Of a stretch of DNA of 64,000 nucleotides, positions 35,727 through 52,222 are shown piece after piece (the stretch's first letter is position 1; each line of letters starts with the position of its first letter). Under the pieces are notes generated by a model. That model did not search any database. It was not told the DNA's origin and saw only the letters and a program-made list of their open reading frames with translations. The stretch comes from Candidatus Pelagibacter sp. IMCC9063. Its GTDB lineage: Bacteria > Pseudomonadota > Alphaproteobacteria > Pelagibacterales > Pelagibacteraceae. Location: NCBI RefSeq assembly GCF_000195085.1, contig NC_015380.1:110001-174000 (forward strand), read 5' to 3'. The position numbers and the translations under genes were made by a program.

Positions 35727-36947
35727 CTAAATAAATCGATCTGAGCTGTATTTTGAAAAATTTAAATTTACGCCATCTTTACATATAATTTTTGAAATCA
35801 CACTTCCTGTAATAGCTGCTAAAGTCCATCCTAAATGATGATGACCAAAAGCATAAAATATATTTTTATGATGTTTAGATTCTCCAATCACAGGAACAAA
35901 GTCTGGAAGACTAGGTCTAAATCCCATCCAGCTATCATAAGGATCAGGAAGGTTAGAAATCATTTTTTTAGTTTCTTGTGTAACATACTGTATTCGTTTT
36001 GGGCTTGGTGGATTGCTCAAGCCTCCCAACTCTACCGTTCCCGCTGCTCTTAATCCTTGCTCCATAGGAGTAAGATAAATTCCATTGTCTAACGAACATA
36101 CAGGGCGATTCACAACTCTAGCAGATTCTTTAAAGTGAACATGGTATCCTCGTTCTGTCTCTAAAGGGATAGATTCGCCCAACTGATCGGTAAATTGTTT
36201 TGAGAAAGCTCCTGCTGTAATAAGCAATTCTTCAAAGGCATATTCTTTATCTTTTGATTTTAATTTTTGAGAGTCGATTGTTATTACTTCATCTTTAATA
36301 AAAGTGGCTCCCATCTCTAAACACTTGGAAAATATTTTATCTGATATTTTCTTAGGGTTTTTTGTATGCATTGAATTGGGAAAATAAATACCCCCTTCAT
36401 AAATAGGATTTAAATTAGGCTCCATGTCATGAACCTCATGTTTGCTTAACAAATGTTGTTTTATTTTTAACTCTTGTCTCAGCAAATTAGATTCCTTTAC
36501 TGGTTCTTTGTTATCTTTGCCATAGATATACAAAGTTCCTTTTTGCTCTACCAAATCTTCAGCTCCAATATCTTTAAAAATTTTTTCATATTCAGTAATG
36601 GAAAAAACTAACAAATCATTCATTTTTTCAGCAGTATTGCGCATGGATTTTTGATTGCAATTTTTTAGAAACTGGAAAGCCCAAGGGAGTATTTTGAGCA
36701 GATAATTAAATTTAATAGAAAGAGGAGAAAAAGAACTAAATAAATATTTTGGCAAATTTTTAATAACTGATGGCTGATTGAGCGCTACTGCAGCATAATC
36801 TGAAAAAGCACCAGCGTTACCATAAGAAGCACCATTGCCTGGCTCGTCTCGATCATAAAAGGTAACTTCATATCCCTTTTTTAAAAGATGATAGCCTGAA
36901 CAAAGACCTATAATTCCAGATCCTAAAATTGAAATTTTTTTACTCAT
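35727..36947 (-). CDS. FAD-dependent amine / D-amino-acid oxidoreductase (DadA-like)
   Basis: This DAO-family flavoprotein (406 aa) starts with the dinucleotide-binding GSGIIGLCSGYHLLKKG and has the DadA-like NAGAFSDY loop and a C-terminal GHHHLGWTLA segment. It would oxidatively deaminate a small amine or D-amino acid. It closes the run that starts with phosphonoacetate hydrolase. Flavin oxidoreductases recur in phosphonate clusters (described as PbfC/PbfD), where they form phosphonoacetaldehyde from aminoethylphosphonates. That role here is inference. Ordinary D-amino-acid or proline-type dehydrogenase is the alternative. Confidence 0.8.
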   Translation of the reverse strand: MSKKISILGSGIIGLCSGYHLLKKGYEVTFYDRDEPGNGASYGNAGAFSDYAAVALNQPSVIKNLPKYLFSSFSPLSIKFNYLLKILPWAFQFLKNCNQKSMRNTAEKMNDLLVFSITEYEKIFKDIGAEDLVEQKGTLYIYGKDNKEPVKESNLLRQELKIKQHLLSKHEVHDMEPNLNPIYEGGIYFPNSMHTKNPKKISDKIFSKCLEMGATFIKDEVITIDSQKLKSKDKEYAFEELLITAGAFSKQFTDQLGESIPLETERGYHVHFKESARVVNRPVCSLDNGIYLTPMEQGLRAAGTVELGGLSNPPSPKRIQYVTQETKKMISNLPDPYDSWMGFRPSLPDFVPVIGESKHHKNIFYAFGHHHLGWTLAAITGSVISKIICKDGVNLNFSKYSSDRFI

Positions 36948-36983
36948 AAGAATATATTTTTTATCATACTGTACTAAAAAAAA

Positions 36984-37859
36984 TTATATTTTTTGGATGA
37001 CATTGGCACTTTGTTTTCTTGTAGCGATATAAACTCCTACACTAGCAACAGTCAAACCTATTGCATCAAAAATAGTTAAGGTTTCTTTTACAAAAAGCCA
37101 AGCCATAACCGCAGCCACAGGGGGAACTAAAAAAAACAATGCGGAGGTTTTGCTAGCAGAACCTATTTTAATTAAAAACATTAAAATAGTAAAAGCGCCA
37201 AATGAAACTGCAATAATTTGCCAACCCATGGCTAATAGGAAATTAGGGGTAAAATTAATAAAAGGGCTTTCTAGAAAAAAAGAAAGAATAAAGAGAAAGA
37301 TACTTGCACTTAAAGACTGATAAATATTATTTACCGAAAGAGGCATGTCCATACTTAATTTTTTTTGCCATAAAGTGCCTGCTGTAATAGCAATTAGAGC
37401 GACAAAAGATGCTAGGAGTCCTACAGAGGGTAACGTATCAAAAGAATCAATTCCTAAAACTATTAAAGTTCCACCAAATCCTAAAAGGATTCCTACCCAC
37501 TGCCTCCAAGTAACAATCTCTCCCAAAAAGGGTCCTGCAAGCGAAGAGGTAAGGATTGGCTGAAGAGTAACTATTAATGCAACAATTCCTGCTGGTATAC
37601 CTTTAGAAAGAGCAAACCAACATCCACCAAGATATATACCGTGAAACAAAATACCTGTTGCCATAGCCTTGCTGGTTTCAGCGATTGGATAAATTACTTG
37701 CTGACTTTTAATTAATGAATATAAAAAAAATCCAAGTGTTACGAGAGTGAAGCGAAAGCACAAGGCTGCAAAAGGTGAGGCATCTACAGTAATAACCTTT
37801 CCGGTTATAAAAGCAGAGGACCATAAAAAAATAAAAATTAAAGGAAAAAATCTAACCAT
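36984..37859 (-). CDS. EamA/DMT family permease
   Basis: This ten-helix drug/metabolite transporter (291 aa) has two EamA repeats. Members export or import amino acids, nucleotides and small metabolites. Its features include FLWSSAFITGKV at the start, a family hallmark, and LQPILTSSLAGPFLGE. It lies between the FAD oxidoreductase (36 bases) and a second DMT gene (110 bases). The two DMT proteins are not close copies of each other. Substrate is unknown. Confidence 0.85.
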   Translation of the reverse strand: MVRFFPLIFIFLWSSAFITGKVITVDASPFAALCFRFTLVTLGFFLYSLIKSQQVIYPIAETSKAMATGILFHGIYLGGCWFALSKGIPAGIVALIVTLQPILTSSLAGPFLGEIVTWRQWVGILLGFGGTLIVLGIDSFDTLPSVGLLASFVALIAITAGTLWQKKLSMDMPLSVNNIYQSLSASIFLFILSFFLESPFINFTPNFLLAMGWQIIAVSFGAFTILMFLIKIGSASKTSALFFLVPPVAAVMAWLFVKETLTIFDAIGLTVASVGVYIATRKQSANVIQKI

Positions 37860-37969
37860 TTGAAGGTTCTTTCAAGCTAATTGACAAATGAAGGTATAAT
37901 TTAAACTTTTAAATAACAAAAGAATAATTAAACAAAAATAATGTGTTAGATGAATATTTAGAGCAAAGT

Positions 37970-38818
37970 TTACCCATAAAGCTTAATTAAAATAACACCT
38001 ATAAAAATTAAGCAAGAAGAAATAACTCCCAAAATACCAATTTTTTCTTTTAGAATAAAAACTCCATATAAAGAGGCAAATAGTATGCTCGTCTCTCTTA
38101 GAGAGGCTACAGTTGCAACTTTTGCTACAGTAAAGCCATACACTGCTGGAAAATAAGAATAAGATGCTAACACTGCAGATACCAAAATTTCTTTCGAGTA
38201 TTTTTTAAAAAAACTTAATGTTAAATTACTGTTTTTTAAAAAGAAAATTGCTAGGACATTAAAAATAATTCCGTCGAATGCAAAGTAATAAATAAGATAG
38301 ATTATGGCATCAGAAGCTCTTGAGCCAAGCGCATCCACAATTGTGTAGATAGCTATCATCAGAGCAACTAGCAATGCATATGAAAGCCCCTTGAAGTTTA
38401 TTTTTTTAAATCTACTATCTGCAAAAATTAACAAAATAATACCAAGGCATAGCACCAATACTGAAAAAATATTATTAACAGTTAAATCATCAGAAAATAT
38501 TAGTGGAGTCGCAAACAAAACTAATAATGAAGGAGTTCCTCTGGCCAAAGGGTAACCATAAGATAGTTCCGAATTATCATAAACACGGCACAAAAAGAAT
38601 TTATAAAGTGTATGAATAACCAGAGTAATGATAAAAAATGAGTATGCTTCAGGAGCAAGCGGGTCTACAAAAAATAAAATAGGTATAAAAAAAATACTAG
38701 CAACAAGAGTAAATGCTCTTGTAAATAGAACTTTATCTACAGATTTTTTTAAAAGAATATTCCAAGTTACGTGACATATTGCACCAGATAAAATGGCAAA
38801 AAATAAAAAATTATCCAA
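37970..38818 (-). CDS. EamA/DMT family permease in the phosphonate operon
   Basis: This second ten-helix DMT transporter (282 aa) lies three bases downstream of the alcohol dehydrogenase gene, so it very probably belongs to the phnA-phnY operon. It starts FLFFAILSGAICHVTWNILLKK, a pattern seen in DMT proteins. The context suggests it imports the phosphonate substrate or exports a product, but this is inference only. DMT proteins are better known as exporters. Confidence 0.85.
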   Translation of the reverse strand: MDNFLFFAILSGAICHVTWNILLKKSVDKVLFTRAFTLVASIFFIPILFFVDPLAPEAYSFFIITLVIHTLYKFFLCRVYDNSELSYGYPLARGTPSLLVLFATPLIFSDDLTVNNIFSVLVLCLGIILLIFADSRFKKINFKGLSYALLVALMIAIYTIVDALGSRASDAIIYLIYYFAFDGIIFNVLAIFFLKNSNLTLSFFKKYSKEILVSAVLASYSYFPAVYGFTVAKVATVASLRETSILFASLYGVFILKEKIGILGVISSCLIFIGVILIKLYG

Positions 38819-38821
38819 TAG

Positions 38822-39937
38822 TTACAATCCCATAAAGTCTTGAGCTTTATTTAGGCTTTGTAAATTTCCAATAAAATTTTTTCCTCTTTCTCCTTCAAAG
38901 GCCTCTGAAACAATTAAATTCCACTCGTTGGAACTTCCAATATAGCTTTTGGGGTCTATGGAAATATCAATTGATTTAAAAAAATCTTTTAGAATTTTTG
39001 GTCCTTGTTCCAAATCCTGTCCAAAAAGAGTTCTGAAATTATCATCGCAAACTTTATCTATTCCAATTACCGATTTTAAGACTGTGGGCAAAGTGAAGGA
39101 ACATGCAATACCATGAGGTACACCGTGTTTTAGAGTGATTGGATACGATATATTGTGAGAAATGGCAGTTTTTGTATTTGAAAAAGCTAAACCTGCATAC
39201 ATAGATCCCATCGTTAACATTTCTCTATATTTGATATTTGTTGGTTCCTTTAGTACCTGAGGAAGAAATTCCATAATAATTTTAATTGCTTTTATTGCAT
39301 AGGTATTAGAAAGAGGATTTGAGTTAATATTCCATATACTCTCGAAAGCATGGGACATTGCATCTAATCCAGGCTCTAATGTAATCTTTTTAGGTAACGT
39401 TAGCATTAAATTAGAATCAAAAATTGACATTTTTGAATACAGACACTCATGCGCTAATGAATACTTTTTTTGATTAGCACTATCCCATATAGTTGCCCAA
39501 GAAGTTAACTCGCTACCCGTTCCGGCAGTTGTGGGTATTGAAATTAAGTCTGGGTGATTTTTTTTTACATATTCATTTTTCTTTTCCAGAAAATCAACTG
39601 TATAATTAAAATCTCCAAGTCCGAAAGCTATAAATTTAGCAGAATCAATTACCGATCCTCCACCCAAACATATAATTTGCTTATTCTCTGAACTTATATT
39701 TTGGTATTTCTTAGCAATGACTTCTAAGTTTTTATAATCCGGGTTAGGAGATATCTCGTCTACAATTAGCAAGGGTTCCCCAAGTACGTCCGTAATTTTC
39801 TTAACCTGATCTTTAAAGATTTTATCTGGATAGGTGAAAATACAATATTTTTTTTTTGGAATTAAAGCTAAGGATTTTAGATTGTCTAAGAATCCTGTTT
39901 TAAAAATTATTTTTGACGGATTGTGATAATTCCACAT
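38822..39937 (-). CDS. Iron-containing alcohol dehydrogenase, candidate 2-hydroxyethylphosphonate / phosphonoacetaldehyde oxidoreductase
   Basis: This group III (iron-type) alcohol dehydrogenase (371 aa) has the NAD-binding LGGGSVIDSAKF and PTTAGTGSELTSWATIW segments. Metal ligands lie in GLDAMSHAFES and in the LKHGVPHGIA histidines. It lies three bases after phosphonoacetaldehyde dehydrogenase in an operon for phosphonoacetate breakdown. Known relatives (PhpC) interconvert phosphonoacetaldehyde and 2-hydroxyethylphosphonate. By position I infer oxidation of 2-hydroxyethylphosphonate to phosphonoacetaldehyde. The family call is firm, the substrate is not. Confidence 0.85.
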   Translation of the reverse strand: MWNYHNPSKIIFKTGFLDNLKSLALIPKKKYCIFTYPDKIFKDQVKKITDVLGEPLLIVDEISPNPDYKNLEVIAKKYQNISSENKQIICLGGGSVIDSAKFIAFGLGDFNYTVDFLEKKNEYVKKNHPDLISIPTTAGTGSELTSWATIWDSANQKKYSLAHECLYSKMSIFDSNLMLTLPKKITLEPGLDAMSHAFESIWNINSNPLSNTYAIKAIKIIMEFLPQVLKEPTNIKYREMLTMGSMYAGLAFSNTKTAISHNISYPITLKHGVPHGIACSFTLPTVLKSVIGIDKVCDDNFRTLFGQDLEQGPKILKDFFKSIDISIDPKSYIGSSNEWNLIVSEAFEGERGKNFIGNLQSLNKAQDFMGL

Positions 39938-39940
39938 AAT

Positions 39941-41381
39941 TTACCATTTCATATTTATATTTTTTAACTTCGCATAACTTTTCATTTCGTCGAAACATTC
40001 CTCGACACCCAAACCGCTCAATTTCCATCCCCCATAGGGAGCTCCTGAATATCTACCAAACGTATTGACCCATACATAACCTGCCTGAATATCTTCAGCT
40101 GTCTTCATTGCATTGCTTAAAGAGTTAGTAGCTATCATTGCTGTTAACCCATAAAGAGTTGAATTTGCAATTTCAATTAATTCCTCATAACTCTCCCAAG
40201 TTAAAACAGATATCACTGGACCAAATATTTCCTCTTTTGCAATAGTCATGTCAGGCTTTACGTCTGTAAAAATAGTAGGATTAATAAAAAAACCATTTTT
40301 TAATTCTGGGTCTTGCGGATTATCTCCTCCAAGAACTAATTTCGCTCCTTCTTTTTTACCTGTCTCAATATATTCCATTACTTTATCAAACTGTCTTTTG
40401 GAAACGATAGGGCCTATTTCATTTGTTTCAATCCAAGGCAAACCAACCGGTATTTTTTTTGCTTTTTCTACCAAGTGTTTTACAAAATTCTCTTTTAAAC
40501 TTTTATGCACTAAAACTCTGGAAGTGGAACTACAAGATTGTCCTTGTCTACTTAAATTCATTCCCTTAATTGCCAAATCAGCTGCAAACTCAGGATCAGC
40601 ATCATCGAATACCATTAGTGGATTTTTTCCTCCCAGCTCAAGAGAAACATTTTTTAGATAGGGTGCTGCATCTATATTTACTGCAATACCTGTATTGACT
40701 GATGAAATAACTCCAATTCTTTTAATTAGAGGGTGTTTAACAAGAAAAGAACCTCCTTCAGGCCCTCCTGTAACAACATTGATCAAACCATCTGGAAAAA
40801 TATCTTTTAGTAACTCACACCACTTAAGTGGTGAAATTGGTGCTTGTTCAGAATTTTTTATCACTAGAGAATTTCCCATTAGCAAAGGTGCTGCAATTTT
40901 TTCAACACAAAATCGAAATGGGTGGTTAAATGGATTGATTTTAAGAACAACCCCATATGGCTGATATCTTGTAAAGTTTAAGTGTTTCGGTTCCATGGAA
41001 AATGTTTCACCCTTGACTTCACGAACCAATCCACAAAAATATTTAATATTTTCGATACTCATAGTCACATCTTTCCTCATGCCTGTTAATGCATTTCCTG
41101 CATCATACGAGTCTATGAGCGCGAACTCTTCGGCTCTTTCTTCAATTCTAGAACAAAGCTTTAAAAGAGCGTCTACCCTCTGGTTCAAAGATTTTTTTTC
41201 CCAAATTTTTTTGAGCTTTTGCTGCAGACTGTACAGCCAATTCTAGTTCTTGGTTGTCAGAGATAGGAACGTCACAAAGTTTTTCCCCATTAGAAGGATT
41301 GGTAACCTCGTAAGTATTTGGATTATTCATCCATTGACCATTTACGTAAGTTCCTTTTATTTGAAATAACTTATCGATCAT
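39941..41381 (-). CDS. phnY: Phosphonoacetaldehyde dehydrogenase, interrupted by a frameshift
   Basis: PhnY is an aldehyde dehydrogenase that oxidises phosphonoacetaldehyde to phosphonoacetate. The frame starting at 41381 gives the N-terminal 60-65 residues (FQIKGTYVNGQWMNNPN...). It then leaves the family sequence at a run of eight A (plus-strand T run 41192-41199). The remaining 415 residues continue in another frame from about 41190, with the ALDH ELGGKNPL and catalytic cysteine GQSCSST. Seven A in the run would give one chain of about 480 residues. The start overlaps phnA by 11 bases. Substrate is assigned from operon context. Confidence 0.82.
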
Positions 41382-42612
41382 AATTCAAAGCCAAATCAAA
41401 TATGTCATAATTATTTAATTTCTCTTTTTTCTTATAACTATCATCTAACTTATCTGAGATAAAAATTGGTATTGAGGTTTCGTCTAAACCCCCATGAGAT
41501 CTCAAAGGCTCTTTTAATTGGCTAAGGTCATGGTCTTTTTCCCCCTTACCAAGAGCAAAGCTGGCCTTGCAGGTTACGACCAAGTCACCAATGCGATCTG
41601 CTGGCTGATTTAATTTATTTACAGCTTCTTCTTTTGTCAAAGCAACGTCAATTCCCTCAATGGCTTGAATGTAATTTTTGATTTCATTTATTTTATCTTT
41701 ATTATCTAAGTAAATTGTAACGAAAGAACCTAGCGCCCCATGGTGAATAACGTACGGATCAGTAATGGTACATATAACATTGCATTTATCTTCAGGATAA
41801 TCTTTATTCAATAAATCCTGCAAATAAATTACGTTTGGGGTTCCGTCCGGCTTACTTTTTGCCTTCATCCCATGATCAGCTGTAAATGCAACCTTACACC
41901 CAAAGCTTAGAAGTTTTTCTATATAACCATCAATCATTTTATAAAATGCATTTGCTATGTCACTTCCTGGAGCACATTTGTGCTGAATATAATCTGTGGT
42001 AGATAAATACATAAGATCAATTTTTTCACCTTTTTCTAAAATTTTAACCGCAGCAGCAAAAATAAATTCTGATAAATCTGCACTATAAACTTCTGGAACA
42101 GGTTTCCCCACTAACTCTAAAACATTTTCTATTCTGCTATCTTGTAGATTGGCAAGATCAGCCTTCTCAGCAGAAAAACAAATTGATTTTTTTAAGTTTT
42201 TACCAAGCAGCTTTTTAAGCTTATCTTTTGCGGTAATGACAGCTAGATTCGCTCCTGCTTTTTCAAAGGCTTCAAAGATAGTTGGTGCCCGTAAAAAAGA
42301 GTCATCATTCATTAATGTTTCTTTTTTATCTTCAGGATTATAAAAAAAGTTAGCGCAAATTCCATGCACATCAGGCGTGGTACCAGTTACAATTGATAAA
42401 TTATTCACATTAGTGAAGCTTGGCATGGCACACTTTCCTATCTCATAGGTTCCTTGGCTGATAATAGACTTCATGCAAGGCATAAAGCCCATTTCTATTG
42501 CTTTTTCAATGTAGCCATCTTTACCAGGCTCACTGCCATCTAGACAGATCACTATAGTAGTTTTTTTTGGCCAATTATAAGATCGATTATTTATTGATAC
42601 TGGATTTTTCAT
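41371..42612 (-). CDS. phnA: Phosphonoacetate hydrolase
   Basis: PhnA is a zinc enzyme of the alkaline-phosphatase superfamily that cleaves the C-P bond of phosphonoacetate to acetate and phosphate. The 413-residue chain shows the expected ligand pattern. An early Asp in CLDGSEPG (Asp25) is followed by the nucleophilic Thr in MPSFTNVNN (near residue 67). TTDYIQHK, FTADHGMK and the late RSHGGLDE complete it. PhnA is specific to organisms using phosphonoacetate or oxidised aminoethylphosphonate. It leads a minus-strand operon divergent from a LysR regulator. Confidence 0.92.
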   Translation of the reverse strand: MKNPVSINNRSYNWPKKTTIVICLDGSEPGKDGYIEKAIEMGFMPCMKSIISQGTYEIGKCAMPSFTNVNNLSIVTGTTPDVHGICANFFYNPEDKKETLMNDDSFLRAPTIFEAFEKAGANLAVITAKDKLKKLLGKNLKKSICFSAEKADLANLQDSRIENVLELVGKPVPEVYSADLSEFIFAAAVKILEKGEKIDLMYLSTTDYIQHKCAPGSDIANAFYKMIDGYIEKLLSFGCKVAFTADHGMKAKSKPDGTPNVIYLQDLLNKDYPEDKCNVICTITDPYVIHHGALGSFVTIYLDNKDKINEIKNYIQAIEGIDVALTKEEAVNKLNQPADRIGDLVVTCKASFALGKGEKDHDLSQLKEPLRSHGGLDETSIPIFISDKLDDSYKKKEKLNNYDIFDLALNYDR

Positions 42613-42628
42613 GATTATTTAAAAAGAC

Positions 42629-42643
42629 TTATATCAAATATAA
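42629..42643. promoter_or_regulatory. Putative LysR-type operator between phnA and its regulator
   Basis: A perfect inverted repeat TTATAT-CAA-ATATAA lies in the 79-base gap between phnA and the divergent LysR gene. It has the T-N11-A shape of LysR binding boxes. The AT-richness of the genome makes chance occurrence possible, so only position and symmetry support it. Confidence 0.4.
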
Positions 42644-42691
42644 TATTTTTAGTCCTCACTCTTTTATATATAATGCTTATAGAAAATTCAT

Positions 42692-43567
42692 ATGAACTAT
42701 ACTCAAATTAGAAGTTTTAATGCTGTCACTAAACATCGTAGCTTTACAAAAGCAGCAAAAATATTAAGTGTTTCCCAATCAGCTATTTCAGAACAGGTAA
42801 AAAGTGTTGAAAGTAGATTTAAAATAAAATTATTTATAAGAAATGGTAGTGGAATTTTATTAACTGACTATGGGAAAAAACTTTATGATATTACAAAAGA
42901 TATAGATGACATTCACGAGCAGGCATTAAATCTTTTAAAATCATCTAACAGACTCACAAGTGGAACATTAAATATTGGAACTGTAGCACCCATACATTTA
43001 ATGCCTATCTTGAGTAAATTCTCAAAAAAATTTCCCAAGATTAATTGCAATATTGTTTTTGGTAATTCAGTTCAAATTAAAGAAAAGCTTTTAAGAAAAG
43101 AAATAGATATTGGAATTTTGGCTGATATAAATGATCAAAGTCAACTGTACTCAAAGCCTTTGGTACGTGATAAATTATTATTGTTTGCATCTATTAAAAA
43201 TACTATTTCAAAAACAAAAAGTATTTCTTTTAAAGACATTGTAAACGAAACATTTATTGTAAGGGAAAAAGGATCTCAAACAAGAGCTCTAGTTGAAAGA
43301 GAATTGCTGCATTTAGGGATTAAAAAAAAATTATACACTATTGGAAGTAGGGAGGGAATTTTTGAAGCAGTAAAAAATAATATGGGTGTGGGCTTTGTCT
43401 ATAGTACTGAGAAGATAAACTTACCAAAGGTAAATTTTGTAAAGCTTACTAATACAAACTTCTATGCTACTGAATATGTTTGCTGTCTTACTAAAAGATA
43501 TGACTTTAATGCCATAAAAGCTTTTTTTGATATTGTTCCAAGTTTTAAAGACTTATCTAAAAGTTAA
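42692..43567 (+). CDS. LysR family transcriptional regulator of the phosphonoacetate operon
   Basis: This LysR-type regulator (291 aa) has the winged helix at residues about 1-60 (FTKAAKILSVSQSAISEQVKSVE) and a C-terminal periplasmic-binding-like effector domain. It is transcribed away from phnA, the classical layout for a LysR activator controlling its neighbour. The likely inducer is the phosphonate substrate or an intermediate. This would make induction substrate-driven in addition to any phosphate-starvation control. It converges on the PiT gene with a 15-base overlap. Confidence 0.9.
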   Translation: MNYTQIRSFNAVTKHRSFTKAAKILSVSQSAISEQVKSVESRFKIKLFIRNGSGILLTDYGKKLYDITKDIDDIHEQALNLLKSSNRLTSGTLNIGTVAPIHLMPILSKFSKKFPKINCNIVFGNSVQIKEKLLRKEIDIGILADINDQSQLYSKPLVRDKLLLFASIKNTISKTKSISFKDIVNETFIVREKGSQTRALVERELLHLGIKKKLYTIGSREGIFEAVKNNMGVGFVYSTEKINLPKVNFVKLTNTNFYATEYVCCLTKRYDFNAIKAFFDIVPSFKDLSKS

Positions 43568-44542
43568 AGATAAGTAATAACTAAAAATAAAAACAATAAC
43601 TGGTAAATAGATCCAGCTACTTATTATGAATAAAGAATTCTTAATATTAGTTTCTCTAAATCCTTTAAATGCAGCTATACCTAAAATGCTAGCCAAAGTT
43701 ACGTGTGAGGCAGAGATAGGCATTGCAAACAGATTAATTCCAAACTTTAAATTTACATAGTCAATAATTAGCTTCGAAGAGAAAAAAAGTAATATGACTA
43801 TTTGCGTAGCCAAAATTGCCAATGCCGATACTGGATTAATTTTGGAAACTTTAGTTCCAATATTATGAATAATTTTTTTAGAGAAGAAAAGAGCTCCCAA
43901 TCCAATACACCCAGAGCCTAAAAAAAATAATAAATTTTCATTAATATGAATTGAAGAATTTATGAAAGGAGAAAAGATACCTACAATTGATGCGGTTAAA
44001 TTAGAACCTAGTGCAAATGCAGCTAAACAACCAAATAAGATTAGTAAAGCTCTTATGACAAAATCTTTATAAAACATATTTAATTTTAAAATATTTAAAC
44101 AAGAGTTTATTAGGAGGTGTAAAATAATGACTAAAAAAAATGAGATAAATGGAGTTAAAATCCAAACAAAAACCAATTGTTCAAAAATATTATAATTAAC
44201 ATTTACTTCGGTTGCGATAGCAAAACCGATAATCGAAAAAATTAAAGATTGTGAAATAGAACTTGAAATTTTTAATTTTATAGAAAATAAAGTTGCAACT
44301 ATGACAGGGACTAAAATAATAAAAGTTTTATCTATTGAAAAATAAGAAGGAATAATATTTTGATAAATGGCGGATGGATATTGAGCATTAACAATAGCAC
44401 CAAGGATTATAAAAATTATAAAAAATAATATTGCTCGAGAAAACTTAAGCATTTTAGAACCAATAGCTGATCCAAAAACATTTACTGCATCATTCGCACC
44501 AACAATGATTCCTAGTACCAAAGCTAGAATTAAATATGTCAT
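43553..44542 (-). CDS. pit: PiT family inorganic phosphate permease
   Basis: This low-affinity phosphate permease (329 aa) has about ten hydrophobic segments. The two PiT signatures appear as LGIIVGANDAVNVFGSAIG and MPISASHVTLASILGI; both are slightly divergent from the usual GANDxANAFGT and PxSTTH forms. It is the last gene of the phnDCEE run and follows the DUF47 protein by four bases, the usual DUF47-pit pair. It could import phosphate or handle phosphate released by periplasmic or cytosolic hydrolysis. Confidence 0.88.
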   Translation of the reverse strand: MTYLILALVLGIIVGANDAVNVFGSAIGSKMLKFSRAILFFIIFIILGAIVNAQYPSAIYQNIIPSYFSIDKTFIILVPVIVATLFSIKLKISSSISQSLIFSIIGFAIATEVNVNYNIFEQLVFVWILTPFISFFLVIILHLLINSCLNILKLNMFYKDFVIRALLILFGCLAAFALGSNLTASIVGIFSPFINSSIHINENLLFFLGSGCIGLGALFFSKKIIHNIGTKVSKINPVSALAILATQIVILLFFSSKLIIDYVNLKFGINLFAMPISASHVTLASILGIAAFKGFRETNIKNSLFIISSWIYLPVIVFIFSYYLSLTFR

Positions 44543-44546
44543 GTAA

Positions 44547-45188
44547 TTAGTTTTTAACTGAGGATATTATTAAACGATCAGCAACATCTTCGGCAAGGTT
44601 GGCAACCTCATCTACAATTTCAACGAAGTATCTTAAGTGCATTTTTTGAGAAAGATCTAAATTATTGTTATTAAAAATTGCATTTTTAAGTTTAGTGCTA
44701 ATTTTATCGCCTGTACTTTCATGCTTTGAAACTAACAAGCAATCCTCAATAGTTTTTTTAGGATCAATAAAAAACTGTTTTGATCCACTGATCAAAAGCT
44801 TTACGCAGGTACTATTGTTTTGAACAAGATTATTAAAATCATCATGTAATTCTTTGTGAATATCTGGCTTTTCAGTATTTATTCTATGGGCATTTCCTTG
44901 TAATTGACCAGGAATTTTATCAAGGTTTTCCAACATCCCTAAAACGTCCCCTCTCTGTTCTGGAATAAGAGTTTCTTGATATATTTTTCTTTCGGTAGTC
45001 CTGCGAAGTTTATCACATGCACTTTCTAAATCAGATATTTTCACAGTCAGATCTTCTACTTTTTTGTAATTTTTTAAAAAAAATTCTTTCATTAGATTCT
45101 CAAAAAGACTGTTTACTTCTAAAATATTATTTAAAAACAAATTTATAGAATTGATTAGTTCTTTCTGATCATTTTTATAAAAAGACAT
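44547..45188 (-). CDS. DUF47 / PhoU-like protein paired with PiT
   Basis: This PhoU-like helical protein (213 aa, TIGR00153/DUF47 type) usually sits before a PiT permease and is thought to regulate it. It has repeated acidic helices with conserved SDLESACDKLRR and KHESTGDKISTKL segments that resemble PhoU metal-cluster motifs. It follows the second phnE by three bases. It is distinct from the true PhoU of the pst operon in this window. Confidence 0.87.
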   Translation of the reverse strand: MSFYKNDQKELINSINLFLNNILEVNSLFENLMKEFFLKNYKKVEDLTVKISDLESACDKLRRTTERKIYQETLIPEQRGDVLGMLENLDKIPGQLQGNAHRINTEKPDIHKELHDDFNNLVQNNSTCVKLLISGSKQFFIDPKKTIEDCLLVSKHESTGDKISTKLKNAIFNNNNLDLSQKMHLRYFVEIVDEVANLAEDVADRLIISSVKN

Positions 45189-45191
45189 ATC

Positions 45192-45989
45192 TTATTGAGT
45201 TTCTTTTTGAATTTTGTTTCTCATAAAAGCTGACAAAGATTCAGACAAGACAACTAAAACTATAATGGAAACAATAATAGCCGAAACTCTTGCATACTCT
45301 AACTGCAACACATTTCTTTTTAAATACCAACCCATGCCACCTGCTCCAAAAAAACCAATGATTGTTGATGCTCTGAAGCATACATCCCAAGTATAAATTA
45401 ATATTCCTGTAAAGGCTGTTTTTACCTGCGGCCAGACCCCATAAGCAAAAACCTGAAGCTCATTTGCTCCATTGGAGCGAATAGTTTCAACTAGTTTCAT
45501 ATTTACATTTTCCAACTCTTCAGAAAAAAGCTTTCCAAAAAAACCTATGCAATACATAGTAAGAGCCATAACACCTGCCAACATTCCAAAGCCAACAACA
45601 GTTACAAAAAGGATGGTCCATATCGTTTCATGAATAGATCGCGAAAAAATAATTAAAAATTTTCCGATAGGATATGCAATTCTCTTACTAGGAGTTATGT
45701 TTCCAGCTGCAAAATAAGCTAAAACTGATGCTATAATAACACCAATCACCAGTCCTAGATAACCCATTTGAACGCTGTTCAAGATCGACTGCAAATAACC
45801 AGGGTCTAAAGCATATTCTAAATCAACTGGATAATAACGATTTGCTATGAGGCTTCCAAATCGACCAAGAGCAGAAAAAAATCTTTCAAAATCTATTCCT
45901 AAGTAAAGGAAACATAAATAAATAACAAAAAAGAATAGGGCTACACCTACAAATTTTTTTGAAGTATTGTTTTGATAAATATCTTTCAT
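45192..45989 (-). CDS. phnE: Phosphonate ABC transporter permease (second PhnE)
   Basis: This inner-membrane subunit (265 aa, about six helices) of the PhnCDE importer carries the permease EAA-type loop (ETIRSNGANELQVFAYGVWPQ) that contacts the ATPase. The GFFGAGGMGWYLKRN segment typical of the PhnE family follows. The two permease genes of this operon encode different proteins and presumably form a heterodimer. It is three bases from its neighbours on both sides. Confidence 0.92.
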   Translation of the reverse strand: MKDIYQNNTSKKFVGVALFFFVIYLCFLYLGIDFERFFSALGRFGSLIANRYYPVDLEYALDPGYLQSILNSVQMGYLGLVIGVIIASVLAYFAAGNITPSKRIAYPIGKFLIIFSRSIHETIWTILFVTVVGFGMLAGVMALTMYCIGFFGKLFSEELENVNMKLVETIRSNGANELQVFAYGVWPQVKTAFTGILIYTWDVCFRASTIIGFFGAGGMGWYLKRNVLQLEYARVSAIIVSIIVLVVLSESLSAFMRNKIQKETQ

Positions 45990-45992
45990 AAT

Positions 45993-46805
45993 TTAATTTA
46001 TTTTCTTTCTTAAAAAGTGTGACAGAATTTCTCCAATAATAATTAGTAAAAAAATAAACATTATTACCGTTGTTACTCCTGGATAATTAGACATGTGCAT
46101 CTGTCTAAAAAAAGCTAGACCTAATCCACCAGCACCAACCAAGCCCATAATCGCTGACCTACGAATATTAATATCCCACTCAAAAATAATAGTTCCAATT
46201 ACCGTTGGTAGTATTTGCGGTATAATTCCATAATACATAATATCAAAACCTGATCCTCCTGCTGCTCTAATTGCTTCTATCGGTTTTTTATCAGCTCCTT
46301 CTATAGACTCAGATATGATTTTTGAAATAAATCCCACCGATCGAAAAGCCAAAGCTAAAATTCCAGGTAATGCTCCGAGTCCAACCGCTCCTACAAATAT
46401 TAATGCCCAAATTATTTCATGCACAGACCTACTTATGGTCATTAAAAATCTGGCAAAACCAAAACTTGCCATACCCAAAGGAGTTACATTTCTTGCGCCT
46501 AGCCATGCGACAGGTAAGGAAAGAAATAAACCAAGCATTGTACCCAAACAAGCCATTAAAAAAGTTTCAAAAGTTGGTACAATTAAGTGCTTCATAATTG
46601 TAAAATCAAGACCAACAAAATAAGATAACTGCTCAAGTATTCCTCCGCCTGAGCCAATTCGATGCCAATCAGTATCTAAAACAATAATAAAATAAACACT
46701 AAAAAAAATAATGACTACGAGAGAGATGTAAAAAATTATTTTTTTTATTATCTTTTTAGAATTTTGTTGTGAATAGGTATCTACATCAAGTGTAAATGAT
46801 TCCAT
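45993..46805 (-). CDS. phnE: Phosphonate ABC transporter permease (first PhnE)
   Basis: This permease of 270 residues has a single N-terminal helix and a later membrane core. The coupling loop is EAIRAAGGSGFDIMYYGIIPQ, followed by MGLVGAGGLGLAFFRQM. It begins at the last base of phnC. With the second PhnE it forms the membrane channel for the PhnD-bound ligand (phosphonate or related oxyanion). Confidence 0.92.
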   Translation of the reverse strand: MESFTLDVDTYSQQNSKKIIKKIIFYISLVVIIFFSVYFIIVLDTDWHRIGSGGGILEQLSYFVGLDFTIMKHLIVPTFETFLMACLGTMLGLFLSLPVAWLGARNVTPLGMASFGFARFLMTISRSVHEIIWALIFVGAVGLGALPGILALAFRSVGFISKIISESIEGADKKPIEAIRAAGGSGFDIMYYGIIPQILPTVIGTIIFEWDINIRRSAIMGLVGAGGLGLAFFRQMHMSNYPGVTTVIMFIFLLIIIGEILSHFLRKKIN

Positions 46806-47560
46806 TATAAGACCTCATATTTATAAAGATCTTGAAGAACTTCGTGGGTTAGCTTGTCTGTAGTGTCGTCAAATTTTTTCTTTCCATCTTGAAGACCAAG
46901 AATTCTGTTGGCAAATTGTTTTGCCAAATCAATATTATGAATATTGCACAATACGGGAATTTTTAATTCTTCTGCTATCCCTTTAATTAATTCCATCATT
47001 TCAATGGCTATTTTTGGATCTAGGCTAGACGTAGGCTCATCTACCAACATAATCTCTGGCTCTTGCATTAAGGCCCTAGCAATACCAACTCTTTGTCTTT
47101 GACCACCACTTAATTGATCAACCCTTTTATTTGCAAAATCTTCTAAACCCACCTTTTCTATTAAGGCAATGGCTCTACTGATGTCTTTCTTATCAAACAT
47201 TCTAAAAAGACTGGTAAAAGTATTCATGTAGCCAAGTCTACCTGTTAAAATATTGTCTATAACTGACATTCTATCGATTAGATTAAATTCTTGGAAAATC
47301 ATTCCAATTTTTCGTCTTACTGATCTTAATTTTTTTCCACTTAGCTTGGTTATGTTTTCTCCCTTGAACAAAACATTACCGCTATTAGCATCTGCTAATT
47401 TGTTAATACATCTAATTAATGACGACTTCCCAGCTCCACTGGGTCCAATGATTGCGTAAAAGTCACTTTTGGAAACTGAAAATGATATATCAAATAAAAC
47501 TTGGGGACCTCCCTTTTGATATGTTAGGTTTAAATTTTCTACTTTTAATATTTCGTTCAT
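46805..47560 (-). CDS. phnC: Phosphonate ABC transporter ATP-binding protein
   Basis: This ATPase subunit (251 aa) shows Walker A GPSGAGKSSL, Q-loop FQEFNLIDR, signature LSGGQRQRVGIARAL and Walker B MLVDEPTSSLDP. The FQEFNLI and DANSGNVLF features match PhnC. An AGGA ribosome-binding site precedes the start. A strong hairpin separates it from phnD upstream. Confidence 0.94.
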   Translation of the reverse strand: MNEILKVENLNLTYQKGGPQVLFDISFSVSKSDFYAIIGPSGAGKSSLIRCINKLADANSGNVLFKGENITKLSGKKLRSVRRKIGMIFQEFNLIDRMSVIDNILTGRLGYMNTFTSLFRMFDKKDISRAIALIEKVGLEDFANKRVDQLSGGQRQRVGIARALMQEPEIMLVDEPTSSLDPKIAIEMMELIKGIAEELKIPVLCNIHNIDLAKQFANRILGLQDGKKKFDDTTDKLTHEVLQDLYKYEVL

Positions 47561-47574
47561 AAAATCCTATCTAG

Positions 47575-47606
47575 AGTATGCGTGGATTGTTAAACCCACG
47601 CATACT
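47575..47606 (-). other. Intercistronic hairpin between phnD and phnC
   Basis: The perfect inverted repeat AGTATGCGTGG / CCACGCATACT (11 pairs, 10-base loop) lies just after phnD and 15 bases before the phnC start. It has no T-tract directly after it on the transcribed strand, so it is more likely an mRNA-stabilising or attenuating element than a full terminator. It would raise the amount of binding protein relative to membrane subunits. Confidence 0.7.
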
Positions 47607-47636
47607 ACTTATTCAACTAATTAACAGGAGAGTTAA

Positions 47637-48548
47637 TTATTTTTTAGCTTTTTTCTTTTTCTTAAACTCAGCTTTAGCTTTAGCTAAAGTTCTGATTACA
47701 TCATAATCTTTGTCTGTCATTGCAACAAACTTAGATGATTTAAGATTAGCTAGAAACTTTGCAGCACCTGCATCATTTCCAAGCTCTAGAAAAGTTCTTC
47801 TAATATTGTCCTGAATATCCTTACAAAGCTTACCGCTGAATACGAAAGGATCTTGAGGAACTGAAGGTGATCTCCATAAAATATTAAAATCACTCAATTT
47901 TACTTTTCCTTTTGCAACTACGTTGTCAAATCGGTGACTTGCTACGAAGCCAGCATCGATTTTTCCACTATAGACTGCTAGAGTTGTAAGGTCATGACCA
48001 CCTGTGTAAACAATTCGTTTCCAGAATTTGTCTGCATCAGTGTTCATAGAAGGTGCCCAAACTACTCTTGGAATTAAATCTCCAGAAGTACTTCCTGGAT
48101 CAGCATGACCCACCGTAGTACCTTTTAAAGATTTTTCAGTTGTAAATTTTGACCCCTTTTTAGAAATCAAAACACTTTGGTAACCTGGTCCTTCTTTTTG
48201 CATATATCCTTTTTTCTTAGCATATGTAGCAAATACCGTTATTGAAGGTTCTTTCTTTTTAGCAGTTATGTAACCATAAGGTCCCAATACAGCTATATCA
48301 ACAAAACCACCTATTAAAGCTTCTGCAACTGAAGCGTAAGAAGTTGGCATATAAAATTCAATTTTCTTACCAGTGTTTTGTTTTAATTTTAAAAGAATCG
48401 GTTTGTATAAGTCTAATTCAAAAGACGATTCTTCTGTTGGAATAATTGAAAATCTAAGTTGCTTAGGATTGCTACACTTAGCGGCATATGCGCTAGTACC
48501 AATCAAACAAATTGAAATTAAAACTCCAATTTTTTTAATTATATTCAT
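47637..48548 (-). CDS. phnD: Phosphonate (or phosphite-type) ABC transporter substrate-binding protein
   Basis: This periplasmic binding protein has a signal peptide ending near SAYA and the PhnD/PtxB-family ligand-binding segments ADPGSTSGDLIPR, VLGPYGYI and WRSPSVPQDP. The start at 48548 (MNIIKKIGVLI) is chosen because a GGGGA site precedes it and the signal peptide begins there. An ATG 11 codons upstream lacks these. The ligand may be 2-AEP, another phosphonate, phosphite or phosphate. No C-P lyase genes are present here to process methylphosphonate. Confidence 0.92.
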   Translation of the reverse strand: MNIIKKIGVLISICLIGTSAYAAKCSNPKQLRFSIIPTEESSFELDLYKPILLKLKQNTGKKIEFYMPTSYASVAEALIGGFVDIAVLGPYGYITAKKKEPSITVFATYAKKKGYMQKEGPGYQSVLISKKGSKFTTEKSLKGTTVGHADPGSTSGDLIPRVVWAPSMNTDADKFWKRIVYTGGHDLTTLAVYSGKIDAGFVASHRFDNVVAKGKVKLSDFNILWRSPSVPQDPFVFSGKLCKDIQDNIRRTFLELGNDAGAAKFLANLKSSKFVAMTDKDYDVIRTLAKAKAEFKKKKKAKK

Positions 48549-48764
48549 TATGTTTTCCCCTTTTTTGTTAATGCTTAACATTACATAACAAGTCTCAAGT
48601 TTCGACCAATATTAAAAAAAGATACCCCCTATCGAAAAAAAAGAAATTTTATATTTGTCATAAAAAGCAAGAAATAGCTCAAAAAATGAAAAAAATTTAC
48701 TAATTGTAGGTTGTGTGTGTATCTTGAATTGTATAATTTTTTTCGTCTGACTCTAAACTCTAAA

Positions 48765-49427
48765 TTAATAAATGAGTTTGTTATTTTTTCTATAGTCTTT
48801 TATTTTAGCCGCATTCTTAAAAAAGCTTATTTTTTTGTTAGTGTAGCCCCCTTGTTTAAGGCAAAAATCGATTTTTGAATTTTGAGCTGCATGATAATCA
48901 TGTTCACTATCTCCTACGAACAGGGCATCTTTTTTATTTATCTTAAATTTTTTTACCACATTGTTTAATACACTTGGATGAGGTTTTTTAAATTTAAAAG
49001 TGTCTCCGCCTGCTACAAAATCAAAATATTTTTTTAAATCAGATTTTTGTAATACAATTTTAGTTAACTTTTCTAACTTATTGGAACACACTGCTAGTTT
49101 ATAATTTTTTTGTAATTTATTTAATAAGTTTTTAATACCAGGATAAGGCTTGGACTTTACATAAACGTTTTTTTTATAATAAGAAAAAAAATAATCATAC
49201 ATATCTTGTTTTTGCTGGTTACTGGCTTTTACTTTTTGCATAGCTAATGATTTTATAATATTGCCCATAATTCCCTGGCCAATAATACTTTTTACCTTGT
49301 GGTAACTAATAGTTTTATAACCAAATTTTTGCAGGGTAAGATTGTTAGCTATTAAAATATCTGTTTGAGAATCAACTAAAGTTCCATCCAAATCAAATAT
49401 AATTAGCTTCTTTTTTTTTAGATCCAT
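48765..49427 (-). CDS. HAD-superfamily phosphatase (phosphoglycolate phosphatase-like)
   Basis: This HAD hydrolase (220 aa) carries the nucleophile motif FDLDGTLVDS, the serine/threonine motif (CSNK), a lysine (KKPHP) and the final GDSEHD acidic motif. The helical C1 cap suits small phosphorylated metabolites, as in Gph. It lacks the DWAGT-type nucleophile motif of phosphonatase PhnX, so phosphonoacetaldehyde hydrolysis is unlikely. It directly follows an Fbp-type ABC importer, so it may dephosphorylate what the importer brings in. Confidence 0.88.
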   Translation of the reverse strand: MDLKKKKLIIFDLDGTLVDSQTDILIANNLTLQKFGYKTISYHKVKSIIGQGIMGNIIKSLAMQKVKASNQQKQDMYDYFFSYYKKNVYVKSKPYPGIKNLLNKLQKNYKLAVCSNKLEKLTKIVLQKSDLKKYFDFVAGGDTFKFKKPHPSVLNNVVKKFKINKKDALFVGDSEHDYHAAQNSKIDFCLKQGGYTNKKISFFKNAAKIKDYRKNNKLIY

Positions 49428-50488
49428 TACAAAAACTTAATTTTTTTGGAATCTAAGAACATAGTTATTTTTTCTTTTGGATAGTAAATTTTTTTATCTA
49501 CCTCATGCAAAGTATCAATAACTAAGGAATGATTTTTAACATTCACAACATACCTTACAATATTTCCAAGAAATTCCTGGTTTTCAACCGTACCCTCAAA
49601 CTCTTCCAATGATAATCCTCTTAATCCCAATGAATTGTTCTTATTTTCCAAATATAAATTTTGAGGTCTTAATAAAACAGAAGTTCCCTTTGCATCTGCA
49701 CCAATGCCCTTGATTACCATTCCATTCTTGCTCGTAAAGACAGAATTTTGAAATTCTCCTTCTATTACGTTGGTTGTTCCAAGAAAATTAGCTACGAATG
49801 CATTGGTTGGATTGTTATACAAATCTACGGGTCTACCCATTTGCTGGACTATTCCTTCATTGAAAATTGCCAAGTTGGTGGACATGGCATTAGCTTCTTC
49901 TTGGTCATGGGTAACAAAAATCGTTGTGATATCTAACTTGTGATGAAGTTCTAACAATTCTTTTCTCATCTGAACTCTTAGTTTGGCATCTAAATTAGAA
50001 AGTGGCTCATCAAGAAGTAAAACTTTTGGTTTCACAACTAATGTTCTAGCCAGTGCAACTCTTTGCTGCTGTCCACCAGATAGCTGGTAAGGATATCTTT
50101 TGCTCAATCCATCCAGGTCTACTAGCTCCAAAACTTCAGCTACTCTTGTTTCTATTTCTTTGCTATTAATTTTTTTTTCTTCTAAACCAAAACTAATATT
50201 TTTATAAACAGTCATATGGGGCCACAAAGCATAGTTTTGAAAGACCATTCCCACATCTCGTTCCCATGGATTCAAACTGCTAACCTCCTGACCTCCAATA
50301 AAAACTTCTCCTGATTGAGATTTTTCAAACCCAGCAATCAATCGCAACAAAGTAGTCTTGCCACATCCTGAAGGTCCTAAAAAAGTATAAAAATCTTTAT
50401 TGTCGATACTAAGATTGACGTCTTTTAAAACATGGTTTGAACCATAAGACACATTAATATTTTTTATTTCAATTATTGAATCGCTCAT
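49427..50488 (-). CDS. Fbp/Pot-type ABC transporter ATP-binding protein
   Basis: This ATPase (353 aa) has an N-terminal ABC domain (Walker A GPSGCGKTTL, signature [15 protein letters not shown], Walker B LLLDEPLSNLD) and a C-terminal TOBE regulatory domain. This layout is typical of iron(III), putrescine or 2-aminoethylphosphonate importers. It overlaps the permease stop and the HAD phosphatase start by single bases, so all are one operon. Ligand is unknown from sequence alone. Confidence 0.92.
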   Translation of the reverse strand: MSDSIIEIKNINVSYGSNHVLKDVNLSIDNKDFYTFLGPSGCGKTTLLRLIAGFEKSQSGEVFIGGQEVSSLNPWERDVGMVFQNYALWPHMTVYKNISFGLEEKKINSKEIETRVAEVLELVDLDGLSKRYPYQLSGGQQQRVALARTLVVKPKVLLLDEPLSNLDAKLRVQMRKELLELHHKLDITTIFVTHDQEEANAMSTNLAIFNEGIVQQMGRPVDLYNNPTNAFVANFLGTTNVIEGEFQNSVFTSKNGMVIKGIGADAKGTSVLLRPQNLYLENKNNSLGLRGLSLEEFEGTVENQEFLGNIVRYVVNVKNHSLVIDTLHEVDKKIYYPKEKITMFLDSKKIKFL

Positions 50489-52170
50489 TAGTCTATCTTA
50501 GCCTCCATCCCTCTTTGTTTGTAGTTTTTTTCTATAATTAATTGAGAAAGATATGTTCCTGCAGTTACAATTAAAACTCCGATCACACCAAAACCAGCAC
50601 CAGGACCTCTTCCTGCGGCTGTTTGCATGTAAGAATAGATTGCATAAGCTAAAGGTGCATCCGTTTCTGTAGATACCAACATAATAGTTGCTGATAACTC
50701 GACAGTGGCTGTTGAGAAACTAGTAATAAACCCTGCAAGCAATCCACCCATCATCAAAGGAATTAATATTTTTCTAAAAATCGTGGTTTTTTTTGCTCCC
50801 AATGTTTCAGCGGACTCTTCTAAATATTTGCTTATTTGCATTAAGACTGCGTTGCAAGCTCTCAAGGCATAAGGAAGTCTTCGCACAGCTAAAATAATGA
50901 CAATCATAAACCACCAAGAAGCTAATGGTTTGTCATTCCATGGTAAATTAACTGAATAGAAAGTCCTTAAATAACCAATACCCAAAACAAGGCCTGGGAT
51001 CGCAAGCGCGCTCATAGCAATATAATCTAAAAGCTGCCTTCCTACAAACTTCGTTCTTAAGACAATGTAAGAAATAAAAAATGCTAGCACAATATCGATC
51101 AATGCTGCAATGGAACAATACAGCATGGTGTTTTTAATAAAGACACTATTTTCAAATACAGCTTTATAGTGACTAAAAGTGAATGCGTCTGGCAAAATAC
51201 TAAATGACCAAACAGTTCCAAAGGATAAAAGAGCCAAAGCAATATGGGGGGATAAAACTAAAAACAAAATAAGAAATACTACCGAATAAGCAAAAAACTT
51301 TTGATGAGGTAAAAAATTTCTTTTGACCATACCACCACCACCTTTTTGCAGCATAGAATAATCTTTTCCTCCCAGCGCTAGTTTTGCGACCCAAACCGCA
51401 GCGACTGAAGTTAATACTAAAATCACACCAATCACATAACCCATAGGATCGTTGATTCCGATAGAGGAAATTCTAAGATAGGCCTGTGGAGCTAACATAT
51501 TATTTACATCTAGAAGCAAAGGCGTTCCAAGGTCATCAAATACTTTTAAAAAAACTAAACTTGCTCCCGCAATATAGCCTGGCATAGATAAAGGAAGTAC
51601 AATTCTTCGAAATAAACGGAAGCCCTTAGCACCAAGAGTTTGAGCTGACTCTTCCATAGTTCGATCAATATTATTTAAGCTACTTATCAAATTAATTAAA
51701 ATGAACGGAAAGTAATGTATAGATTCCACAAAAATCACTCCGTTCAGCCCTTCCATAAATGGAATTTTAAAACCAAACCATTGATCCAGCATCAAATTAA
51801 CTGAGCCATTGGTACCAAAGAGGAGCTTCATAGCTACAGCTCCTACAAACGGTGGCATAATTAATGGAATAAAACCCAAACTTTGAATAAGAACGGACCC
51901 TTTAAAATTAAAACGTGCTGTAAAATAAGCCAAAGGAATAGCAAAAAATGAAGCAAGAATAACTGACATGGATGCAACATAAAAAGAATTATAAAGTGAC
52001 TCTATAAAAAGAGCACTCTGAAAAAAATCATAAAAATTTAAAAAAGTAAAATGACCGTTCTGATCTAAAAAGGAAACATAAAAGACTTGAACAATAGGAA
52101 CGGCTAAAAAAATAAATAAAAATAATCCAATAAAAATAGCAGTAGATTTTAAAAAAAGATTTTTAAACAT
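50488..52170 (-). CDS. Fused two-domain ABC transporter permease (FbpB/SfuB-like)
   Basis: This permease has two complete membrane domains in one chain (about 560 aa, twelve or so helices), as in FbpB/SfuB. Each half carries an EAA loop (EESAQTLGAKGFRLFRRIVLP and EESAETLGAKKTTIFRKILIP). An in-frame TTG start 12 bases upstream is possible. I prefer ATG at 52170 because the TTG lies against the hairpin that separates it from the binding-protein gene. Related permeases import iron, phosphonates (2-AEP) or sugar phosphates. Confidence 0.9.
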   Translation of the reverse strand: MFKNLFLKSTAIFIGLFLFIFLAVPIVQVFYVSFLDQNGHFTFLNFYDFFQSALFIESLYNSFYVASMSVILASFFAIPLAYFTARFNFKGSVLIQSLGFIPLIMPPFVGAVAMKLLFGTNGSVNLMLDQWFGFKIPFMEGLNGVIFVESIHYFPFILINLISSLNNIDRTMEESAQTLGAKGFRLFRRIVLPLSMPGYIAGASLVFLKVFDDLGTPLLLDVNNMLAPQAYLRISSIGINDPMGYVIGVILVLTSVAAVWVAKLALGGKDYSMLQKGGGGMVKRNFLPHQKFFAYSVVFLILFLVLSPHIALALLSFGTVWSFSILPDAFTFSHYKAVFENSVFIKNTMLYCSIAALIDIVLAFFISYIVLRTKFVGRQLLDYIAMSALAIPGLVLGIGYLRTFYSVNLPWNDKPLASWWFMIVIILAVRRLPYALRACNAVLMQISKYLEESAETLGAKKTTIFRKILIPLMMGGLLAGFITSFSTATVELSATIMLVSTETDAPLAYAIYSYMQTAAGRGPGAGFGVIGVLIVTAGTYLSQLIIEKNYKQRGMEAKID

Positions 52171-52185
52171 AGGAAAAGACAATCA

Positions 52186-52212
52186 CGGCCCTAACCATAA
52201 AGGTTAGGGCCG
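52186..52212 (-). other. Intercistronic hairpin between the binding protein and permease genes
   Basis: The perfect inverted repeat CGGCCCTAACC / GGTTAGGGCCG (11 pairs, five-base loop) is notably GC-rich in this AT-rich DNA. It lies ten bases after the stop of the binding protein and 15 bases before the permease ATG. It probably caps the mRNA of the binding-protein gene and reduces permease expression. Confidence 0.75.
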
Positions 52213-52222
52213 CAAGGATATA

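Follow-up and report, generated by a model that had tools for sequence, protein, structure and literature searches.

Which phosphonate is used by a SAR11 bacterium that carries phnA next to two dehydrogenase genes? The question is raised by a stretch of 64,000 nucleotides from Candidatus Pelagibacter sp. IMCC9063 (contig NC_015380.1, positions 110,001 to 174,000), hereafter the window. A preliminary description had read positions 35727–42612 as a packed run of phnA, phnY, an iron-type alcohol dehydrogenase (ADH) gene and a DMT permease gene behind a divergent lysR, lacking phnW and phnX, in which the ADH replaces PhnW by making phosphonoacetaldehyde from 2-hydroxyethylphosphonate (HEP). From the gene content, the conservation of the locus, the identity of PhnA, the clade of the ADH and the absence of PhnW, PhnJ and PepM, all of which the computation supports, we consider it probable that the operon is catabolic for a non-amino phosphonate, most likely HEP, a reduced-phosphorus compound found in seawater. 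The packed layout was borne out, with spacings of −11, 3 and 3 bases between phnA, the aldehyde dehydrogenase (ALDH) gene, the ADH gene and the permease gene; the interval was not, since its first two genes lie outside the operon and the functional unit extends to 48581. This unit, phnDCEE–PhoU-like–pit–(lysR)–phnA–ALDH–Fe-ADH–phn_DUF6 permease, occupies 37970–48581 and lies on the minus strand except for lysR.

The product of phnA (41371–42612) is, by sequence, unambiguously a phosphonoacetate hydrolase and a clear PhnA orthologue. It scored 492 bits against TIGR02335 (cut-off 407.6) and aligned over its full length with solved phosphonoacetate hydrolases, reaching 434 bits with 3szy. The metal and substrate motifs LDG, SFTN, AKDK, TTDYIQHK, TADHGMK and RSHGG were aligned with those of 3szy, KDK being the substrate motif. 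As the identity of PhnA is unambiguous, phosphonoacetate is the expected intermediate. The ADH (38822–39937) and ALDH (39941 to about 41381) genes stand directly beside phnA, so the order of reactions is expected to be alcohol to aldehyde to acid, in which the alcohol would be HEP and the aldehyde phosphonoacetaldehyde.

The designation of the ALDH gene as phnY had to be abandoned. The window protein belongs to the Pfam family Aldedh (430 bits) and keeps the catalytic motifs ELGGKNP and GQSCSS; however, an intact SAR11 homologue scored only 256 bits against the PhnY model TIGR03250 (cut-off 636), for which the PhnY of Leisingera reached 731 bits. The best match of the SAR11 homologue was betaine-aldehyde dehydrogenase (437 bits), and we regard the enzyme as betaine-aldehyde-dehydrogenase-like and not as a PhnY orthologue.

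The ADH was placed by a maximum-likelihood tree of 56 rows, rebuilt once L033, an outgroup row with a branch length of 10, and further long rows had been taken out. Searches for the family in the class (385 genomes) and the phylum (398 genomes) yielded few high-scoring homologues, and plasmid records added nine that matched over most of the query. PepM-linked ADHs represent the PhpC-like side of the tree, from which the biochemically characterised PhpC is absent. The ADHs of catabolic loci formed one clade (support 99/96) together with the proteins that pass the TIGR03405 cut-off, the PepM/Ppd-linked ADHs fell outside it, and ordinary iron ADHs split off at 100/99. The window ADH was nested within the catabolic clade among the SAR11 copies (100/100), beside a homologue from the phnA–phnY locus of G580 (L087; 95/92). 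Scores against the window ADH followed the same division, with 88–100 bits for SAR11 PepM-linked ADHs and about 280–350 bits for phnA- and phnX-linked ADHs. These results place the enzyme, as judged by phylogeny, in a well-supported sister clade (TIGR03405 Phn_Fe-ADH, named 'iron-containing alcohol dehydrogenase PsrA' at NCBI) of PhpC-like enzymes, and PhpC proper was rejected as its identity.

The two groups share residues of the predicted active site. The alignment predicts D192, H196, H261 and H275 as the metal ligands. S160, T257, S264 and T268 were invariant in all 32 catabolic and all 12 PepM-linked ADHs, and the 12 other ADHs compared had them rarely or never; R351 was found in 32/32 catabolic and 9/12 PepM-linked ADHs. 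T149, S160, T257 and R351 align with Val153, Val164, Leu259 and Cys362 of FucO, which line its substrate pocket (PMC10324492). The hydrophobic pocket thus appears to have been replaced by hydroxyl groups and a cation, which would fit a phosphonate substrate. A C-terminal motif around R351, RG[KR]NF, was present in nearly all sequences of the catabolic clade and in no other group. A separate observation concerns the PepM-linked ADHs (L088, L099–L102, L149–L158), 8 of 12 of which have Gln at the position of the iron ligand H196, which suggests altered metal binding in the biosynthetic enzymes.

The full order phnDCEE–phoU-like–pit–(lysR)–phnA–ALDH–ADH–phn_DUF6 recurred in HIMB114 (L012), AH-287-E19 (L013) and AG-470-E16 (L019), and shorter contigs (L014, L016, L018) hold part of it; the carriers are relatives in SAR11 subclade IIIa, including the cultured HIMB114. 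The preliminary description had called for a survey of such runs lacking phnW and phnX, and five SAR11 loci proved to keep phnA–ALDH–ADH (L012, L013, L016, L018, L019), with the permease gene directly after the ADH gene in all of these except L016. The pit gene lies between phnE and phnA in L012, L013 and L019 and is also present in L014 and L016. The lysR gene was found in L012, L014 and L016 but is missing from L013 and L019, where pit runs straight into phnA. Within the order, phnA was detected in only 4 of 247 genomes.

Four other enzymes of phosphonate metabolism, PhnW, PhnX, PhnJ and PepM, were looked for in these bacteria. In the complete genome of the window strain (1,284,727 bases), searched family by family, the best PhnW match had 86 bits (cut-off 401) and the best PhnX match 36 bits (cut-off 220), in agreement with the earlier statement that phnW and phnX are lacking; PhnX was searched for in this SAR11 genome only. 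The aminotransferase giving the 86-bit match was rejected as PhnW and is by eye of the serine–glyoxylate type. None of the seven operon-bearing SAR11 genomes had PhnW over the cut-off, and none had PhnJ of carbon–phosphorus (C–P) lyase. PepM was over the cut-off in 19 of the 247 genomes of the order, none of them a phnA carrier, and accordingly in none of the four carriers (G000, G007, G032, G195). PhnW and PepM being undetected, these genomes have no identified source of phosphonoacetaldehyde besides the ADH, and this speaks for oxidation as the direction of its reaction.

From these observations we infer the substrate of the operon, the direction of the ADH reaction, the substrate of the ALDH, the regulation and the handling of phosphate. 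PhnCDEE would import HEP, and the iron ADH, using NAD(P)+, would oxidise it to phosphonoacetaldehyde, which the ALDH would convert to phosphonoacetate for hydrolysis by PhnA to acetate and phosphate. The divergent LysR protein probably renders expression inducible by the substrate, and Pit and the PhoU-like protein may handle the phosphate that is set free.

Loci outside SAR11 were viewed as segments of about ±7 kb, some on contigs that end early, and the absences given below hold within those limits; the loci are not all independent. Of 26 loci with an ADH of the catabolic clade, none has phnW within the stretch retrieved, and in 15 the ADH gene is accompanied there by phnA, canonical phnY or phnX. 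Examples are lysR–psrA–phnDCEE–phnA–phnY in Leisingera, psrA–phnA–phnY in Ensifer and phnDCE–psrA–phnX in Comamonas. PhnW is nevertheless encoded in 12 of the 17 non-SAR11 genomes with this ADH, always at a separate locus, and it was under the cut-off in G580, G818, G886, G695 and G798. The association of phnW with the operon that could have spoken for a transaminase entry was seen in none of the seven SAR11 genomes, and elsewhere the two genes share a genome without sharing a locus. Ten of the 12 PhnW loci have a phnX, phnA or phnY of their own. The transporters differ as well: PhnCDE was encoded at 14/26 ADH loci versus 0/12 PhnW loci (Fisher p ~0.001), and binding proteins of the 2-aminoethylphosphonate (AEP) type at 0/26 versus 5/12 (Fisher p ~0.002). 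The presence of both gene sets in a single genome speaks for two different substrates. The core of the preliminary description, in which the ADH takes the place of PhnW and HEP is the natural substrate, is supported by these results, by those from SAR11 and by the pocket residues shared with PepM-linked ADHs, activity on HEP being a prediction.

Two further observations were made in this set. One locus of G580, a small alphaproteobacterium (about 1.4 Mb) that does not belong to SAR11, combines phnA and canonical phnY with a catabolic-clade ADH gene, and the genome gave no PhnW match. In L105 (a Vibrio pelagius plasmid) and L098 (G844) the ADH gene is accompanied by phnDCE, with no gene for a C–P-cleaving enzyme in the fetched stretch; G844 has a phnW–phnX locus about 13 kb from the ADH locus, and phosphonoacetaldehyde could there be passed to a PhnX encoded elsewhere.

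Several points weigh against HEP oxidation as the function of the operon. The activity of the ADH on HEP is a prediction from gene data, and the SAR11 proteins score below the curated cut-off of TIGR03405 (377–388 bits versus 423.7; the window protein 388, that of HIMB114 377), although they share the clade, the linkage to phnA/phnY, phnX and phnCDE, and the divergent LysR gene with that family. The pocket argument is based on an alignment whose C-terminal region is only moderately conserved. It is the position of the gene that points to phosphonoacetaldehyde as the substrate of the ALDH. In marine high-molecular-weight organic matter HEP is esterified to polysaccharide (PMC9381506, PMC5649143), which makes the supply of free HEP uncertain. 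Finally, the ALDH gene of the window has a frame break within A-rich sequence near 41,190–41,210. Because of this break in the assembly, we argue for the pathway in the lineage; it holds for the strain itself only should a sequencing error have caused the break. We consider such an error likely. A genuine break that leaves this strain without a working pathway, which would be compatible with HEP catabolism in the lineage, is a possibility that we take seriously but think doubtful: the break, a single indel, is the sole frame-breaking coding difference in an alignment of about 20 kb with G032, a close relative, and it falls in the ALDH gene, but it lies in a homopolymer stretch typical of sequencing errors, the flanking genes are intact, and the ALDH frame is uninterrupted in five other SAR11 loci and in the part covered by the contig of G032.

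Could phosphonoacetaldehyde arise in another way? The physiological substrate of the ADH might be a hydroxylated or amino phosphonate other than HEP, such as a dihydroxyalkylphosphonate; alternatively, phosphonoacetaldehyde may come from an aminophosphonate through an unrecognised or unusual transaminase, a PbfA-type lyase or an amine oxidase dependent on flavin adenine dinucleotide (FAD). To our knowledge, HEP is the only one among the common alkylphosphonates that gives phosphonoacetaldehyde by simple alcohol oxidation, and on chemical grounds this speaks against a different alcohol. FAD enzymes can turn N-methyl-AEP into phosphonoacetaldehyde (PMC10590968, PMC12366243), a DadA-like FAD enzyme is encoded downstream of the operon, and a transporter resembling PhnS2/T2/U2, all of whose scores are under the cut-off, adjoins it. 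However, the DadA-like gene is present in 202 of the 247 genomes of the SAR11 order as against four with phnA, and it is missing from HIMB114, which has the operon; among the other SAR11 loci, those long enough to show this flank have no AEP-type transporter next to the operon. We therefore regard such an entry as unlikely.

It appears more improbable still that the ADH works in reverse and reduces AEP-derived phosphonoacetaldehyde to HEP, as an overflow or for HEP conjugates. Iron ADHs are reversible, the PepM-linked relatives are presumably reductases, phpC has been found inside AEP operons with the reverse direction proposed (Lockwood 2022, PMC9381506), and most non-SAR11 genomes with the ADH also encode PhnW, as noted above. 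The seven SAR11 genomes and five of the others did not have PhnW over the cut-off, however, the four SAR11 genomes checked for PepM were without it, and the ADH genes adjoin those for PhnCDE uptake and C–P-cleaving enzymes rather than phnW. Oxidation of HEP thus remains the reading that we prefer.

The proposed pathway resembles the PhnW–PhnY–PhnA pathway of the Sinorhizobium meliloti type in its steps from phosphonoacetaldehyde through phosphonoacetate to acetate and phosphate, in its PhnA orthologue and in its LysR regulator; it differs in lacking PhnW, in its entry through an iron ADH, in an ALDH that is not orthologous to PhnY, and in having PhnCDE instead of an AEP-type transporter. PhpC-type phosphonoacetaldehyde reductases are neighbours in the iron ADH superfamily with which the pocket residues, mostly including R351, are shared, but they are linked to biosynthesis. 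The PbfA, PbfB–D and PbfF enzymes of AEP clusters (Peracchi group) follow the same principle of feeding other phosphonates into phosphonoacetaldehyde, with other folds and substrates. PbfF was rejected as an equivalent of the ADH, having a different fold (PF02826) and being reported inactive on HEP (PMC12366243); in that work Ruffolo et al. 2025 raised HEP oxidation as an idea and excluded it for PbfF. Microbial use of HEP as a phosphorus source has been described through C–P lyase with release of ethylene (PMC5649143), as in Sulfitobacter and Pseudomonas stutzeri; operon-bearing SAR11 genomes are without PhnJ, and the proposed route would give acetate, not ethylene.

The link between this ADH family and phosphonates is already known (TIGRFAM/NCBI TIGR03405 'PsrA'; phpC in AEP-catabolic operons, Lockwood 2022). 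The literature searched, coverage of which was incomplete, describes neither a catabolic HEP dehydrogenase nor the SAR11 operon as a HEP pathway, as far as we could see, and it gave no substrate for TIGR03405/PsrA and no relevant origin of the name 'PsrA'. HEP and methylphosphonate together make up as much as 20% of the phosphorus in high-molecular-weight marine dissolved organic matter (PMC9381506). A separate oxidative route in SAR11 that yields acetate and phosphate would, if true, change which organisms and genes count as HEP users. HIMB114 has been inferred to draw on an unidentified source of organic phosphorus even when phosphate is available; on this reading HEP would be a candidate for that source, and the operon a concrete, testable candidate explanation. 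More broadly, and only tentatively, we suggest a substrate-induced, ethylene-free route to HEP mineralisation, independent of C–P lyase and with a phosphate transporter in the operon, in subclade IIIa of SAR11 and in many other Proteobacteria; in SAR11, PhnY would have given way to a recruited ALDH of the betaine-aldehyde type.

The remaining genes of the unit are as follows. The EamA-type permease of the phn_DUF6 family (37970–38818) scored 130 bits against TIGR03340 (cut-off 288). The divergent regulator on the plus strand (42692–43567) had phn_lysR as its best NCBIfam match (TIGR03339, 232 bits, cut-off 341). The Pit-type phosphate permease gene (43553–44542), kept in other SAR11 loci, adjoins that for a PhoU-like Pit accessory protein (44547–45188; TIGR00153, 80 bits, cut-off 104), conserved with pit. 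The transporter half is mostly as tightly packed as the rest, apart from a 76-base gap that separates phnD from phnC, and comprises two phosphonate ATP-binding cassette (ABC) permease genes, phnE-phnE (45192–46805; 83–86% identical in other SAR11 loci), the ATPase gene phnC (46805–47560; TIGR02315, 312 bits, cut-off 266) and the binding-protein gene phnD (47637–48581; TIGR03431, 209 bits, cut-off 261; TIGR01098, 193 bits, cut-off 112). At the other end, the genes for the DadA-like enzyme (35727–36947) and a second EamA permease (36984–37859) are separated from the unit by 110 bases, are unlinked to phnA in relatives and are outside the operon; the DadA-like gene, a general gene of the SAR11 order, was rejected as the operon's gene for an oxidase of AEP or N-methyl-AEP.

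Upstream of phnD (48765–53554) are a HAD phosphatase-like gene and the ABC transporter resembling the putative AEP system PhnS2/T2/U2, with scores of 113, 366 and 171 bits; at the corresponding spot G032 has the HAD gene only and HIMB114 has neither. A phosphate transporter beside phosphonate mineralisation genes is seen both in SAR11, with Pit and the PhoU-like protein (43553–45188), and in Leisingera, where an annotated Na/Pi cotransporter gene (L104, 15460–17068) directly follows phnY.

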